Shown piece after piece: positions 50,932 through 56,727 of a stretch of 64,000 nucleotides of DNA; positions within the stretch are counted from its first letter, which is position 1, and the number at the start of each line of letters is the position of its first letter. A program made the position numbers and the translations under genes. The stretch is from Arthrobacter cheniae (GTDB taxonomy: Bacteria; Actinomycetota; Actinomycetes; Actinomycetales; Micrococcaceae). The DNA is taken from positions 186,001 through 250,000 of the forward strand of contig NZ_QZVT01000006.1 in the NCBI RefSeq assembly GCF_003602275.1. Direction: 5' to 3'. The notes below the pieces were generated by a model. It did not search any database. It was not told the DNA's origin and was given only the letters and a program-made list of their open reading frames with translations.

Positions 50932-51750
50932 TCAGGCCTGCTGACGGGAGAACTCCCCCGCGGCCCGGACCTGCTCGGGAGTAGGGCGGATGCCGGTGTA
51001 GAGCACGAACTGCTCCTCCGCCTGCAGTGCGACCACCTCGGCGCCCGTGATGACCGGTGTGCCCGCAGCCCGGGCAGCGCGGATCAGGGGTGTCTCGGAG
51101 GGCACGGCGACGACGTCGAACACCACTTCGGCGGCGTCGATGGCGGACTGCGGGAAGGCGACGGCGTCGGCATCCGTACCGGTCATGCCGAGCGGCGTGA
51201 CGTTGAGGATCAGGTCGGCGGTCGACTCCCCCACATCCTGCTGCCAGCCGAACCCGTACAGGTCCGCGAGCGCCCTGCCCGTCCGCTCGTTGCGCGCGAC
51301 GACCGTCACGTTCGTGAAACCGGAGTCCCGCAGGGCAGCGACGACGGCCTTGGCCATGCCACCGGAACCCCGCACGAGGACCGAGTGCGTGGTGGGGACC
51401 GCGTGCTCGCGGAGCAGCCGGGCCACAGCCGCGTAGTCGGTGTTGTAGGCGGTGAGGACGCCGTCGTCGTTGACGATGGTGTTGACGGAATCGATCGCCT
51501 TCGCGGACTCGTCGAGGTGGTCGACGAGCGCGATCACCTCCTCCTTGAACGGCATCGAGATCGCGGCGCCCCGGATGCCGAGTCCCCGCATACCGGCGAT
51601 GGCGGATGGCAGGTCCGTCGGCGCGAACGCCTTGTAGATGTAATTCAGCCCCAACTCCTCATAGAGGTAGTTGTGGAAGCGCGTCCCGACGTTGCTCGGG
51701 CGCGACGCGAGGGAGATGCACAGGGTCATGTCTTTATTCAGGATGGGCAC
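50932..51750 (-). CDS. Shikimate/quinate dehydrogenase-family oxidoreductase
   Basis: About 272 residues. The substrate domain has AISMPFKEEVIALVD (catalytic Lys) and SVNTIVNDDGVLTAYNTDY, and the NADP domain VLVRGSGGMAKAVVAALRD, with TPLGM near the end. These are AroE-family motifs. It may be a non-essential paralogue (YdiB/RifI-like), because the N-terminal region differs from canonical AroE. GTG 51750 or ATG 51729 could be the start. It is convergent with amylosucrase. Confidence 0.85.
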   Translation of the reverse strand: MPILNKDMTLCISLASRPSNVGTRFHNYLYEELGLNYIYKAFAPTDLPSAIAGMRGLGIRGAAISMPFKEEVIALVDHLDESAKAIDSVNTIVNDDGVLTAYNTDYAAVARLLREHAVPTTHSVLVRGSGGMAKAVVAALRDSGFTNVTVVARNERTGRALADLYGFGWQQDVGESTADLILNVTPLGMTGTDADAVAFPQSAIDAAEVVFDVVAVPSETPLIRAARAAGTPVITGAEVVALQAEEQFVLYTGIRPTPEQVRAAGEFSRQQA

Positions 51751-51782: not shown

Positions 51783-53093
51783 CTAGCGGACGCCCGCCCG
51801 AACCAGTCCGTCGTGCACGAAGCGGGCCATCACGCTCCACACCGCCGACGACGCGAACGGTTCGAGCTCCATGCTGCCGCCCTGGTTGACGAATGCCAGG
51901 TGCTGCCCCGCTGTTCCGGCCGACAACCACGTGTTCTGGGGGGCAGCGGCGCCGGACTCCTGCAGGGACCAGGCGAGCCACGGCTGCTCCCACAACCTGA
52001 CGAGCGCAGGATCACGTCCCGGCGCGCTGGTCAGCGCTCCGGTTTCCAGCCGGCGCGCGAACGCCTCCCGGGTGACGGCCACGTTCTCCCCGATGTAACT
52101 CCATGCGGGTCCGACCCCGAGCCAGGCGACGAGGACGGATGGCAGGTGCGCAGCACTCACCAGCGCCACCTGCACCTGCCCGAGCGCGGGCGTTCCTGCA
52201 CCACGCGCAGCCGCCGGCGCGGGTCCGGACACCAGGAAGGCGCCGTCCGCACCCACCCATGCCGTGACCGACGTCGCGAGATCTGCGCGCTGGGCGCCGA
52301 CCGCGAAGGAGAAGGTGGGTCCGCGTAGCGGTGCGACCAGGCTCAGGCCCGCCGCCGCCAGCTTCCCCGATGCATCCATGAGGCCCGCGGCGGACAACTC
52401 CTCGATCTGGGCGCGACGACGGAACCGGTCAGCCATCCCGACCCCCTTGCCGTCCGCGCACTCCATCAGCAGGTCGAGCGCCTCGTTACTGATCACGGGC
52501 CCGCCGGACACGAACGGCTGGACCGCGGCGATGCGGGAGAGATCTTCCAGCGGGCGTCCGAGGTGCTCGGAGGCGACGGGATCAAGTGCGGGCTCGGCCG
52601 ACGCTCGCTGCCCCGGTCGGGTGGCCACGGACATGTTGTCCACCCTCGCCAGCTCGACCATGCGGTGCAGGAGGGTCTCCATCCCGACCGACTGATCCGG
52701 GGCGAAGCTGCCGATGATCTCGACGGACAGGTCCCCGAGGACGCAGAACCACCGGAGGACGCACACGGCCTGTCCAGCCTGGAGATAGGTGAACGTCTGG
52801 CGGCGTGCAGGGACATCGGCCACGGTCGCTTCCTCGTGGCCGACGATGTGCGCCTGCGGGAAGGACTGCAGAGTCGCGATCACAGCCCTGGTGGACAGCG
52901 CAGCCAGGGAAAGTCCGCCCGTAGAGCCCAGGCGCACCACGAGGTTGGGCCGGAAGGTACCCTCCGGAACCTGGGGATGTGCGAGCACCAGGGCGGCCCC
53001 GGCCTCGTCCAGGCGTTCCCAGGCGGCCAGCCGCGGCAGGGTCACGGGCCCCGCGGTCTCCCACTGCCATTGCTGGTCGGTGTGCGTCGTCAT
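51783..53093 (-). CDS. LpqN-like/secretion-associated protein in WXG operon (function unknown)
   Basis: 436 residues. The N-terminal half (LVVRLGSTGGLSLAALSTR, RQTFTYLQAGQAVCVLRWF, LSVEIIGSFAPDQ) resembles LpqN/DcrB-like domains but has no lipobox or signal peptide. The C-terminal half (ISNEALDLLMECADGKG, FSFAVGAQRADLATSVTAW) has an EspG/ESX-accessory look, a weak match made by eye. The ATG overlaps the preceding membrane-protein stop (ATGA). It is last in the operon and could be a chaperone or immunity factor for the WXG protein; this is inference. Confidence 0.6.
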   Translation of the reverse strand: MTTHTDQQWQWETAGPVTLPRLAAWERLDEAGAALVLAHPQVPEGTFRPNLVVRLGSTGGLSLAALSTRAVIATLQSFPQAHIVGHEEATVADVPARRQTFTYLQAGQAVCVLRWFCVLGDLSVEIIGSFAPDQSVGMETLLHRMVELARVDNMSVATRPGQRASAEPALDPVASEHLGRPLEDLSRIAAVQPFVSGGPVISNEALDLLMECADGKGVGMADRFRRRAQIEELSAAGLMDASGKLAAAGLSLVAPLRGPTFSFAVGAQRADLATSVTAWVGADGAFLVSGPAPAAARGAGTPALGQVQVALVSAAHLPSVLVAWLGVGPAWSYIGENVAVTREAFARRLETGALTSAPGRDPALVRLWEQPWLAWSLQESGAAAPQNTWLSAGTAGQHLAFVNQGGSMELEPFASSAVWSVMARFVHDGLVRAGVR

Positions 53094-53515
53094 GGCGCGT
53101 TCCGTTCTTCCGTCGGGCCGAGGGGCTCACCGGTGGGACCCTGGCGCAGCACACGGCTCCGGTACTTCGCGGCGTACAGGCCGCCGCCGCGCTTGATCTC
53201 ATCATCCGAGTCCTTCATCCAGCGGGGCTGAAGGAACCGCGGGACGTAGAAGCAGCCGACGAGGCCCGACACCAGGCAGGCCATGAGGAACAGGCTGATG
53301 GGACCAGTCACCGCCTGCGGCAGCCTGTAAATGAGGTCGTTGAAGGGCGCGCAAGCCATCAGGATGCCGATCGGCAGCATCGCCAGGCTCGGTTTGCCGG
53401 GCAGGAAGCTGTCCCCGACCAGCAGGTACATCCACTTCTGCCGGATCATCGAGATGCTCGCCCAGGCGAGGAAGAGACCCAACGGCAGGATCGTGATCAG
53501 GAGTATCGGGGACAT
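53090..53515 (-). CDS. Small polytopic membrane protein (possible immunity protein)
   Basis: 141 residues with about three membrane helices (residues about 3-22, 44-60 and 70-92), then a basic cytoplasmic tail (LQPRWMKDSDDEIKRGGG). I recognise no family. The gene is 92 bases downstream of the WXG effector-like gene and translationally coupled to the next. Polytopic membrane proteins in this position often protect against membrane-acting type VII effectors; this is inference only. Confidence 0.65.
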   Translation of the reverse strand: MSPILLITILPLGLFLAWASISMIRQKWMYLLVGDSFLPGKPSLAMLPIGILMACAPFNDLIYRLPQAVTGPISLFLMACLVSGLVGCFYVPRFLQPRWMKDSDDEIKRGGGLYAAKYRSRVLRQGPTGEPLGPTEERNAP

Positions 53516-53607
53516 CAGGACATCGGACTCCGTTGCAGGCAGGAACAGGCGGTTGCCTGAGGGGCATGACGGTCGGGAATACAGCAGCCGTCCACAGTGA
53601 CGCCAGC

Positions 53608-54966
53608 CTAACCGAACACCGAGTTCCAGCCCTCCGAGATGGCATCCCCGGCATCCGAAAGCGCCTCCTTCGTGCCGTCGTACGCATTCTCGGCGAGATC
53701 CGCCGCTGCGTCCTTCACGCTGCCTCCGCCCAACCAGTCCGGCAGGTCCTGGTCGGCGAGGTAGGAGATGCCCATGCCGACGCCGAATCCGATCACGGTT
53801 CCCACAGGACCGCCGATCATCGTTCCCACGGCTGCACCGGCCACCCCTGCACCGAGGTCGACGGCGGTCTTCGCACCGCCGCGCACCGCACCGAGCTCGT
53901 TGGCACGGGCGTTGCGGTCGGCTTCGCTCATCCTCGGGGACTCCACGAGGAGGCGGTCGTAGGCCTGGGCGCGCTCATCAGCGATCGTCAGGCCGGCCAT
54001 GCCGACGGCGACGACACCGCCGCCGACCTTGAGGGCCTTGAGTCCGTGGGGAAGTTCGCCGAACGTCGGTCGGGGAGTCGACGACGTGGGGGCAGGCTTC
54101 CAGTCGCCCGGGTTCGCGTCCACCCGGGCCCGGTAGGCGGACGACAAGTCGTAGAAGCGCTCGTGGACCTCCGGACGCCAGTCCACCGCGGCGGCGAAGC
54201 CGTTGCGCGTATAGCGCTCCGACACGGTTCGTCCGTAGTCGGGATGGTCGGGGTTGCTGATATGGATCTCGCGCCCGCCGATGTTCAGGTACCTGTCGCC
54301 GGCGATCTCCGCAGCAGTCAGCGGACCGGTCGGATCGAGCGGCGTGAAGCGGAACTGCTGCCAGGGCATCGGGACCTGGCGGTAGGCGGTGATGTCCACG
54401 CGCTTGAAGGTATGGGTGCTCGAGTAATTCGTGCTCGCTGCGACGACCAGGCCGGCCTCGGGCCCGCTCAGGGTGCTGACGGTGTTGTCCACCGTCCCGT
54501 CGATGCCCTTGAGGGCAGCCACGCAGGTCGTCACCGCGTCGTCGTAGCGTCCGGCCAGCCGGTCGATATCACCCTGGAGCCAGCCCTGCTGGGCAGCGTC
54601 CACGGGCGAATCCGGATCGGCGGGGTCCACTGTCGGCGGGTCGGCTTCGAAGGAGGATATTTCGGCGAGCAGAGCGGTCCGCTCAGCCTCGAGCTCCCGG
54701 ACCGTGCCGGCGAAGGCGGCAAGGGCGGTCTGCGCCTGTCCGGCCGCCAGGTCGACAACATCACCGTGGGGGGTGATCGAGGTGAAGACGGCCAGCACCT
54801 CCACCTGTTCCGGGGCTTGATAGCTTCCCGAGAGTCCGGACCACGTGGAGGAGAGCCCATCGACGGTGGTCGAGACGTCGGCGCCCGCGGAGGCGATGTC
54901 ACCGGCGGCCGCTTCCAGCTCCCCCGGTGACGCCCACTGCTGCAGGCCGCTGGTATCGAAAGCCAT
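53608..54966 (-). CDS. WXG-motif effector-like protein with C-terminal glycine zipper
   Basis: 452 residues. The N-terminal 90 residues are helical with a central WSG (Trp42-Gly44), like WXG100/LXG-type secreted proteins. A middle region (ITAYRQVPMPWQQFRFTPLD, YLNIGGREIHISNPDHP) is unassigned. Residues about 365-402 form a glycine zipper/hairpin (GAGVAGAAVGTMIGGPVG), followed by an acidic amphipathic tail (KDAAADLAENAYDGTKEAL). Glycine zippers occur in pore-forming type VII effectors. AAGGAG precedes the ATG, two bases after the WXG100-like gene. Secretion and toxicity are inferred; no ESX machinery is in the window. Confidence 0.65.
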   Translation of the reverse strand: MAFDTSGLQQWASPGELEAAAGDIASAGADVSTTVDGLSSTWSGLSGSYQAPEQVEVLAVFTSITPHGDVVDLAAGQAQTALAAFAGTVRELEAERTALLAEISSFEADPPTVDPADPDSPVDAAQQGWLQGDIDRLAGRYDDAVTTCVAALKGIDGTVDNTVSTLSGPEAGLVVAASTNYSSTHTFKRVDITAYRQVPMPWQQFRFTPLDPTGPLTAAEIAGDRYLNIGGREIHISNPDHPDYGRTVSERYTRNGFAAAVDWRPEVHERFYDLSSAYRARVDANPGDWKPAPTSSTPRPTFGELPHGLKALKVGGGVVAVGMAGLTIADERAQAYDRLLVESPRMSEADRNARANELGAVRGGAKTAVDLGAGVAGAAVGTMIGGPVGTVIGFGVGMGISYLADQDLPDWLGGGSVKDAAADLAENAYDGTKEALSDAGDAISEGWNSVFG

Positions 54967-54968
54967 GG

Positions 54969-55316
54969 CTACTCCTTCGCGTCGTCGATGGCGAGGGACG
55001 GCATCTGCGTGACCTGGCTGCGGGCGGTGTCCGCCATGGCGGCGTCACCCTCGACGTACGCGTTCACTGCAGCGCTGACGCCATTCACGGCGTTCTCGAC
55101 GCGCGTGGTCGCCGCTTCGCACTGCAGCACCAGGACGTCGTTCCAGAGTCCGATCAGGGCGTCACCGATCTGCTGGCTCCTCGACGCTCCGATCGCCGCG
55201 TCGACAGCCGAACTGAGCTTGGTACGGGCAGTGCCGATCGCCTCGCTGTCCGCCTGCACCGTGGACAGCACGCCGCGGCATGCTCCCACGCTGATGTCGT
55301 ACCCCGGTATCGCCAT
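54969..55316 (-). CDS. WXG100/ESAT-6-like small protein (DUF6507-like)
   Basis: 115 residues, all helical, with a WND turn (IGLWNDVLVLQ, Trp58) between two helices, and MAIPGYDISVGACRGVL at the start, recalling DUF6507/ESAT-6-like partners. GGGGGA lies upstream of the ATG. It is the first gene of the operon and likely the binding partner that guides the following WXG-like protein to a type VII secretion system elsewhere in the genome. This assignment is by fold and context only. Confidence 0.65.
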   Translation of the reverse strand: MAIPGYDISVGACRGVLSTVQADSEAIGTARTKLSSAVDAAIGASRSQQIGDALIGLWNDVLVLQCEAATTRVENAVNGVSAAVNAYVEGDAAMADTARSQVTQMPSLAIDDAKE

Positions 55317-55587: not shown

Positions 55588-56727
55588 TTGAAGATCGATT
55601 TCGCCCAGTCAGCCCAGTCAACGCTCGGGGTCGAGTGGGAACTGGCGCTCGTGGACCGCTACAACGGCGAGCTGGTCTCCGTGGCCAACCAGGTCCTGCG
55701 GGGCGTCAGCGCGAATCATCCCGAACTGCAGGACGACGACGAGCACCCGCATATCAAGCAGGAGCTGCTCCTCAACACCGTGGAGCTCGTCACCGGGGTC
55801 TGCACCACCGTGGCAGAGGCGAAGGAAGACCTGTCACGCTCCCTCGCGGCCGTGCGGGAGGTCACCGATCCCATGGGCGTCGAGCTTTTCTGCGCCGGAT
55901 CGCATCCCTTCAGCGCTCCCCGGTTGCAGCAGGTCACGGACAGGGAGCGCTACGCCAAGCTGATAGATCGCACGCAGTGGTGGGGCCAGCAGATGGTCAT
56001 CTACGGCGTGCACGTCCACGTGGGTCTCGATTCGCGCGACAAGGCCCTCCCGGTGGTCGACGGCCTGGTGAACTACTTCCCGCACTTCCAGGCGCTCTCG
56101 GCGTCGTCGCCCTTCTGGGGCGGGGAGGACACGGGGTACGCCTCGCAGCGCGCGCTCATGTTCCAGCAGCTGCCCACCGCCGGATTGCCCTTCCACTTCG
56201 ACGACTGGGCCGCGTACGAGTCCTACGTGCAGGACATGTTCACCACCGGGGTGATCGACGCCGTCAGCGAGATCCGCTGGGATATCCGGCCGGTCGGGAA
56301 CCTCGGCACGGTCGAGATGCGCGTCTGCGACGGCCTGTCCACCCTGCAGGACGTCGGGGCGGTCGCCGCCCTCACCCAATGCCTCGTCCACGAGTTCTCG
56401 GAGACGCTCGACGCCGGAGGGAGCATCCCCACCATGCAGCCGTGGCACATCCAGGAGAACAAGTGGCGGGCAGCCCGCTACGGCCTCGACGCGATCATCA
56501 TCCTCGACGCCGACGGGAAGGAGCAGCTCGTCACCGAACACCTCGTCGAGGTCCTCAACCGGCTCGAGCCCATCGCCGCGAAACTCGGCTGCAGCAGCGA
56601 GCTTGCCGACGTGGAGGGCATCCTGCGCCGAGGCGCCGGCTACCAGCGCCAGCGGCGCATAGCGACGGAGAACGACGGCGATCTGCGCGCCGTCGTGCTC
56701 GACATGGTGGAGCAGCTGCGCGCCTAG
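55588..56727 (+). CDS. Carboxylate-amine ligase, GCS2 (YbdK) family
   Basis: A 379-residue enzyme of the glutamate-cysteine ligase 2 family: STLGVEWELALVDR, the metal/ATP-binding start, VTDPMGVELFCAGSHPF, YGVHVHVGLDSRDKAL, and VEMRVCDGLSTL. Such enzymes form gamma-glutamyl or similar amides with weak activity, and actinobacteria with mycothiol often keep one of unknown role. The start is TTG 55588, seven bases after AGGAG. It is divergent from the WXG operon, with 271 noncoding bases between. Confidence 0.88.
   Translation: MKIDFAQSAQSTLGVEWELALVDRYNGELVSVANQVLRGVSANHPELQDDDEHPHIKQELLLNTVELVTGVCTTVAEAKEDLSRSLAAVREVTDPMGVELFCAGSHPFSAPRLQQVTDRERYAKLIDRTQWWGQQMVIYGVHVHVGLDSRDKALPVVDGLVNYFPHFQALSASSPFWGGEDTGYASQRALMFQQLPTAGLPFHFDDWAAYESYVQDMFTTGVIDAVSEIRWDIRPVGNLGTVEMRVCDGLSTLQDVGAVAALTQCLVHEFSETLDAGGSIPTMQPWHIQENKWRAARYGLDAIIILDADGKEQLVTEHLVEVLNRLEPIAAKLGCSSELADVEGILRRGAGYQRQRRIATENDGDLRAVVLDMVEQLRA

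Follow-up and report, generated by a model that had tools for sequence, protein, structure and literature searches.

A putative mobile type VII effector cassette with a glycine-zipper protein in Arthrobacter cheniae and other Micrococcaceae

The stretch of 64,000 nucleotides of the Arthrobacter cheniae genome analysed here (the window; contig NZ_QZVT01000006.1, positions 186,001 to 250,000) contains four minus-strand genes, P1 to P4, that likely constitute a mobile type VII effector cassette for killing competing bacteria, the predicted toxin, P2, being of the membrane-depolarising glycine-zipper type. An earlier note on this DNA had proposed an antibacterial effector-immunity set, a proposal that predicted fold, genomic context and sequence support; consistent with such a set are the domain architecture, a P3 that behaves in an immunity-like way and the tight association of P4 with the zipper. 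Open reading frames (ORFs) of 115, 452, 141 and 436 amino acids (aa) lie where the note had placed them, and their coordinates give gaps of 2 and 92 bases followed by a 4-base overlap, in agreement with its spacings of 2, 92 and -4. The arrangement is more than chance, since the identical order is found again at loci of other genera.

P2 carries a predicted helical N-terminal domain (N-domain) with a WSG turn and a C-terminal glycine zipper; the turn and the zipper were already remarked upon in the earlier note. The zipper glycines (G377, G381, G385, G389, G393 and G397) are all invariant in 20 aligned sequences, though identity to the P2 of the window drops to 29-32% in the most distant of these, and the WSG turn is at residues 42-44, with W42 likewise invariant. 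Residues 13-90 have a weak WXG100 likeness (Pfam E 0.016, below cut-off; likewise below cut-off in NCBIfam), and the other Pfam matches of the 20 sequences (E <= 0.01) are weak or off-topic (RTX in three, Mce4_CUP1 in two, Gly-zipper_Omp, HD_4, C19orf12 and WXG100 in one each). The structure predicted from these sequences has three long helices in the N-domain, at low confidence (predicted local distance difference test, pLDDT, 51). The nearest relative of P2 is from a metagenome-assembled genome named Micrococcaceae bacterium (87% identity), and the nearest from named isolates are those of Arthrobacter bussei and Arthrobacter sp. Leaf234 (75%). Scanning genome contigs with the single protein gives no relative and an alignment-based scan gives 16 loci, among which L089-L094 match P2 in the zipper part alone. 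Proteins of 338-406 aa with a similar C-terminal glycine zipper are encoded in Herbihabitans, Salinispora and Jidongwangia (L089:6041-7261, L090:6209-7225, L092:6056-7219), two of them with a WXG-like N-terminus by eye, which suggests that zipper effectors exist in other actinobacterial orders.

P2-profile matches are present in 83 of 395 Micrococcaceae genomes; in the family-wide scans for P2, P3, P4 and EccC, as in the class-wide scan of 286 genomes described below, scoring covered the 3 to 10 best initial candidates of each genome, which leaves absences unproven. Many of the matches span only about residues 1-170, inside much longer proteins (588-999 aa). Ten such proteins were scanned: Abhydrolase_8 is present in three and Endonuclease_NS_2 in one, another has TNT together with an Endonuclease_NS_2 match below threshold, a sixth has a Tox-REase-5 match below threshold, and the remaining four have no known domain. 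The N-domain thus heads proteins with differing further domains, as befits a delivery module, and it is a shared module whose predicted role is type VII (ESX) targeting. Large N-domain proteins bearing Abhydrolase_8, Endonuclease_NS_2 or TNT domains are encoded at L070, L073, L075 and L078; the Micrococcaceae may hold a broad type VII effector repertoire sharing the P2 N-domain.

P1 belongs to the Pfam family DUF6507 (PF20117; 50.5 bits, gathering cut-off 25), as do six of six further P1 homologues scanned, all of which pass the same cut-off; no paper on DUF6507 was found in the open-access literature. The WND residues pointed out in the earlier note are present in the 115-aa sequence. Of 14 P1 sequences aligned, 10, that of the window among them, have a [YF]xxx[DE] motif near residue 87. 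YxxxD is reported as the general export motif of the type VII secretion system (T7SS; PMC5311947). P2 has the features of a T7SS glycine-zipper toxin: an extended C-terminal zipper, P1 encoded next door, a putative T7SS targeting domain at its N-terminus and, in the producer, a T7SS.

The distribution of the partners among effectors that share the P2 N-domain ties P3 and P4 to the zipper. The count covers 53 N-domain effectors, 40 with the zipper profile and 13 without, from 44 selected regions (40 taken by best or diverse hits, three picked by P2, P3 or P4 hits, and the window), some of which are near-identical relatives (for example L051/L138 and L056/L071). P4 is downstream of 39/40 zipper effectors versus 1/13 others, P3 is downstream of 29/40 versus 0/13, and P1 is upstream of 37/40 versus 9/13; when the three later regions are dropped, P4 accompanies 36/37 and P3 27/37 zipper effectors. 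The sole zipper effector without P4 sits at a region edge, with P3 and P4 just beyond, and the sole effector with P4 that lacks the zipper profile (L061:2124-3545) ends in another long glycine zipper missed by that profile. Of the 13 effectors lacking the profile, 11 were searched for zippers; besides L061, L076 has a small-residue repeat in the middle of the protein. With these exceptions explained, it is the glycine zipper, and not the targeting domain, that P4 accompanies.

P3 is a three-helix membrane protein, as the earlier note had it: hydropathy gives segments at approximately residues 4-22, 44-62 and 73-91 of the 141-aa sequence, which matches no Pfam or NCBIfam family at E <= 1. P3 matches are found in 37 of the 395 Micrococcaceae genomes, five of which (G022, G026, G028, G139 and G285) lack both a P2-profile match and an EccC above the cut-off; that of G285 is an intact, clearly matching ORF of 126 aa. 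In G247, a P3 ORF of 129 aa adjoins a gene encoding, by eye, the ATPase of an ATP-binding cassette transporter, at the spot that in congeneric relatives is occupied by the entire cassette; no zipper effector was found at this spot and none is listed genome-wide among the best candidates scored. For A. pityocampae three P3 relatives are listed with one of P2 and one of P4, all with a contig size of 812,677. Such orphan copies, together with the three A. pityocampae relatives, are the behaviour of an immunity gene, and P3 is a putative membrane immunity protein, its function being predicted from sequence.

The label LpqN/EspG-like that the earlier note gave to P4 holds for both halves by predicted fold (model pLDDT 84) but not by sequence models. 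In the predicted structure the N-terminal domain has the Eag or DUF1795/DcrB fold (DUF1795 and DcrB being one Pfam entry, PF08786) and the C-terminal domain has the EspG fold. At the level of sequence, P4 has no Pfam or NCBIfam match at E <= 1, EspG included; the EspG model has no match among 11 aligned P4 members or four stand-alone C-domain genes at E <= 0.1; nine stand-alone halves (five N-domain, four C-domain) and one whole P4 give no EspG or DcrB match in Pfam, that scan returning one weak DUF7552 match (E 0.0038); and a sequence search with P4 among solved structures gives nothing useful (best E 0.81). One strand of the Eag-like sheet is apolar on both faces and the other four are not, a pattern too weak to use.

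P4 is present in 48 Micrococcaceae genomes, only two of which (G248 and G319) lack a P2-profile match, and its profile finds, outside the family, five more genomes in a draw of 286 from the class. One of these outside loci (L148) keeps the cassette order, with a zipper-profile effector, a membrane-like protein of 106 aa that the P3 profile does not recognise, and P4. In two genomes of the same class but not of the family (L149 and L150), one gene encodes the P4 C-domain and another the N-domain, in a row with the gene of a larger protein (283 and 257 aa) that by eye is membrane-like, and no effector was found within the short stretch examined. At L152 (G623):1049-2705, small genes that are WXG100-like by eye surround a 160-aa protein related to the P4 N-domain and standing alone (a weak match, 22.7 bits), a hint of wider use of the LpqN/Eag-like fold in the neighbourhood of type VII genes. 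Judged by its modelled fold and its linkage to the zipper, P4 is probably a cytoplasmic neutraliser or chaperone of the zipper. The chances are about even that it belongs to a new class of chaperones for toxins, uniting an Eag-like part (known from the type VI secretion system, T6SS) with an EspG-like part (known from the T7SS), the two being fused or in some species encoded by two adjacent genes; such a chaperone would shield a pore-forming zipper in the cytoplasm and hand the toxin to an actinobacterial ESX system. This predicted fusion is the newest element of the cassette; no paper on a chaperone joining Eag and EspG parts across both secretion systems was found in the open-access literature.

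The earlier note had called for a check for ESX genes of the EccC/YukD type, and these are present in the host genome (4.0 Mb, 37 contigs, completeness 99.1%): a single EccC exceeds the family cut-off (551 bits versus 346.55; contig C37), adjoined by genes for a MinD-like ATPase and for an EccD that includes a YukD domain, by two small genes (101 and 110 aa, the size of WXG100 proteins) resembling an Esx pair, and, by eye, by FHA, kinase and phosphatase genes. The Pfam EccB model has no match in the host genome and is equally silent in all controls, hence uninformative. On the same contig as the window (C30), at approximately 17-22 kb (L008:6372-10562), an FtsK/SpoIIIE protein of 1396 aa with an N-terminal FHA domain is encoded, possibly a second EssC-like secretion ATPase. 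EccC passes the cut-off in 77 of the 83 Micrococcaceae genomes that match the P2 profile and in 2 of the remaining 312, so that only 2 of 79 EccC genomes lack such a match (Fisher p 5e-72, with genomes treated as independent). Within the genus of the window EccC exceeds the cut-off in 3 of 38 genomes (28 from the family draw and 10 searched separately), the same three that have the full cassette; every candidate was scored in the genus-wide P2 search and in the EccC search of the 10 genomes. G020, a genome 68% complete, has a P2 fragment and no EccC over the cut-off.

The cassette is flanked by an aroE-like gene and a ybdK-like gene. The two are on one contig in 31 of the 38 genus genomes, where the interval between them is 127-178 bp in 23, the cassette in three, 738-745 bp in three and other genes in two. 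P1 to P4 are a mobile cassette of the Micrococcaceae. Genes that by eye resemble those of a Tn7/Tn5053-type transposon lie near the P2 N-domain fragment of G020, at a contig end beside ybdK (L145, 154-2988); they may bear on how the cassette moves. Coordinates are collected in Table 1.

Table 1. Genes and sequence features of the cassette and its flanks, in positions of the window
Feature	Position	Strand	Description
P1	54969-55316	-	115 aa, DUF6507 small helical partner; putatively Lap-like
YVEGD, P1 residues 87-91	55044..55058	-	YxxxD-type T7SS export motif (P1 alignment)
P2	53608-54966	-	452 aa, putative T7SS-exported membrane-depolarising toxin
P2 residues 1-170	54457..54966	-	Putative T7SS targeting domain, long helices with W42-S-G (shared N-domain)
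P2 residues 373-401	53764..53850	-	Extended glycine zipper, A/G/S every fourth residue (alignment)
P3	53090-53515	-	141 aa, putative immunity protein with three membrane helices
P4	51783-53093	-	436 aa, putative zipper chaperone / cytoplasmic neutraliser
P4 residues 4-154	52632..53084	-	PsbP/DcrB/LpqN/Eag-like domain (predicted fold)
P4 residues 197-431	51801..52505	-	EspG-like domain (predicted fold)
aroE-like gene	50932-51750	-	Flanks cassette
ybdK-like gene	55588-56727	+	Glutamate-cysteine ligase gene, flanks cassette

In the mechanism proposed here, which is modelled on that published for EsxX (PMC12744356), P1 (Lap-like, with its YxxxD motif) and the helical N-domain of P2 would pair to form the export signal for the EccC machine of the host. 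Before export, as fold and linkage suggest, the Eag-like domain of P4 may cover the hydrophobic zipper while its EspG-like domain may keep the complex soluble or guide it to EccC, which would strip and export P2. By analogy with the zipper toxins EsxX and TelE, the exported zipper would insert into the target membrane and oligomerise into an ion-conducting pore, and P3 in the membrane of the owner would block toxin incoming from sister cells.

The same four genes might divide these roles otherwise, with P4 as the sole immunity protein and P3 as an export or anchoring factor of a toxin cassette. The presence of P4 at 39/40 zipper loci against 29/40 for P3 would suit this division, as would the report that the membrane protein adjacent to TelE gave no protection in Escherichia coli (PMC10434224), but it is unlikely in view of the P3 ORFs without an adjoining zipper effector (G247, G285), the three P3 relatives of A. 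pityocampae, the rarity of P4 without a P2 match (2/48 genomes, G248 and G319), and the protection that ExiCD is reported to afford against extracellular, not cytoplasmic, EsxX (PMC12744356). The membrane proteins adjacent to EsxX and TelE (ExiC/ExiD and the TelE neighbour) are reported to have failed to rescue cells from cytoplasmic toxin, and soluble proteins to have done so (PMC12744356, PMC10434224); the toxicity assay proposed in the earlier note, with and without the 141-aa protein alone, could therefore mislead. It is improbable that P2 is instead a secreted translocator or structural protein whose zipper serves as a conduit or anchor in the envelope of the producer, with P3 as membrane partner and P4 as chaperone. 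A conduit would also account for a zipper beside an adjacent membrane protein, P2 and P3 being paired at 29/40 zipper loci, but the N-domain is common to proteins with nuclease, TNT and hydrolase domains, presence is patchy (three full-length copies in 38 genus genomes, empty sites in 23/31), and P3 exists without P2 and is unfound at 11/40 zipper loci, which is unexpected of an obligate partner. Very improbable is an intracellular toxin-antitoxin or abortive-infection module, in which P2 would depolarise its own cell on a trigger, P4 would be the soluble antitoxin and the ESX resemblance would be vestigial: P4 does track the zipper very tightly, as an antitoxin would, and the distribution is mobile and patchy, but this module would leave aside the tight co-occurrence with EccC (77/83), the YxxxD motif kept in P1 and the N-domain of large effector-like proteins.

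Several points weigh against the preferred reading of P1 to P4 as a cassette for exported, antibacterial, pore-forming toxin. The WXG100 matches of P2 stay under the cut-offs of both Pfam and NCBIfam, and LXG (PF04740) matches neither P2 at E <= 1 nor the 20 aligned P2 sequences at E <= 0.01; P2, which on this analysis would act like an LXG toxin, yet falls outside the LXG family by model. Four of the ten long N-domain proteins are without any known domain, and the poor P2 model (pLDDT 51) leaves pore formation to motif and analogy. The co-occurrence counts are uncorrected for shared ancestry. No recognisable P3 is present at 11/40 zipper loci (10 if the region-edge locus is counted), from which it follows that P3 is a non-obligate partner or that its replacements are too divergent to detect, and among the five genomes with P3 in the absence of P2 and EccC only G285 is clear, G026 having a weak ORF of 121 aa and G022, G028 and G139 having fragments. 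Eag/DcrB sequence matches appear in only 4 of 11 aligned P4 members (E <= 0.1, best 0.0058) and not in the P4 of the window, and the PsbP/Mog1 fold also occurs in proteins of different function, some T6SS immunity proteins among them.

No zipper toxin of an actinobacterial ESX system was found described in the open-access literature, in which the cases found are from Bacillota, and no paper was found there that joins type VII secretion, Arthrobacter and polymorphic toxins. If the preferred reading is right, an actinobacterial ESX system would kill neighbours via depolarising toxins, self-poisoning would be averted by a fold other than that of the DUF5085 proteins of Bacillota, and the cassette would be a model outside the mycobacteria for ESX-driven bacterial killing. 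Roles would be suggested for DUF6507, for a new family of three-helix immunity proteins and for many Micrococcaceae proteins with the P2 N-domain, and two folds (Eag-like here, GyrI-like DUF5085 in staphylococci) would each solve the safe cytoplasmic carriage of a membrane-active toxin. The linkage of P4 also makes testable what an EspG-fold chaperone recognises outside the mycobacteria.

Among the known systems close to the cassette, EsxX-LapX3/LapX4-ExiAB-ExiCD of the T7SSb of Staphylococcus aureus ST398 is described (PMC12744356) as having small helical partners, a helical N-terminal targeting domain, a C-terminal glycine zipper, membrane and soluble proteins encoded downstream, and orphan membrane immunity genes in non-producers. 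There, the membrane proteins ExiCD occur also as orphans and the soluble ExiAB occur with the toxin, the same pattern as that of P3 and P4 (PMC12744356). Unlike that system, the cassette belongs to an actinobacterial host with an ESX system, the LXG model does not match P2, a single DUF6507 partner takes the place of DUF5344/DUF5082, there are three membrane helices in P3 instead of six, and P4 is a predicted fusion of PsbP/Eag-like and EspG-like domains instead of a GyrI-like DUF5085 pair. TelE-TipE of the T7SSb of Streptococcus gallolyticus (PMC10434224) resembles the cassette in its C-terminal zipper toxin, the membrane protein encoded immediately downstream and a soluble neutraliser whose binding to the zipper region is predicted, and differs in the LXG targeting domain, the DUF5085 neutraliser and the phylum.

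An LXG zipper protein of Streptococcus macacae (L091:5690-7150), identified through the zipper pattern, shares 17 of 25 zipper residues with P2 and is followed by three mutually similar ORFs that are polytopic by eye, but unlike P2 it has a true LXG domain (PF04740, 38.9 bits). The likeness was dropped as proof of common descent, as only the 25 zipper residues align significantly; the S. macacae protein is a functional parallel, its zipper possibly convergent with that of P2. The Eag chaperones EagT6 and SciW of the T6SS (PMC7773334) have no T7SS context and no fused EspG-like domain, and they serve N-terminal translocation helices, whereas P4, whose Eag likeness has weak sequence support, would serve a C-terminal toxin zipper. 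Compared with the chaperones EspG of the T7SSa and EsaE of the T7SSb, P4 has no Pfam EspG match, and it accompanies zipper effectors but hardly other effectors with the same N-domain.

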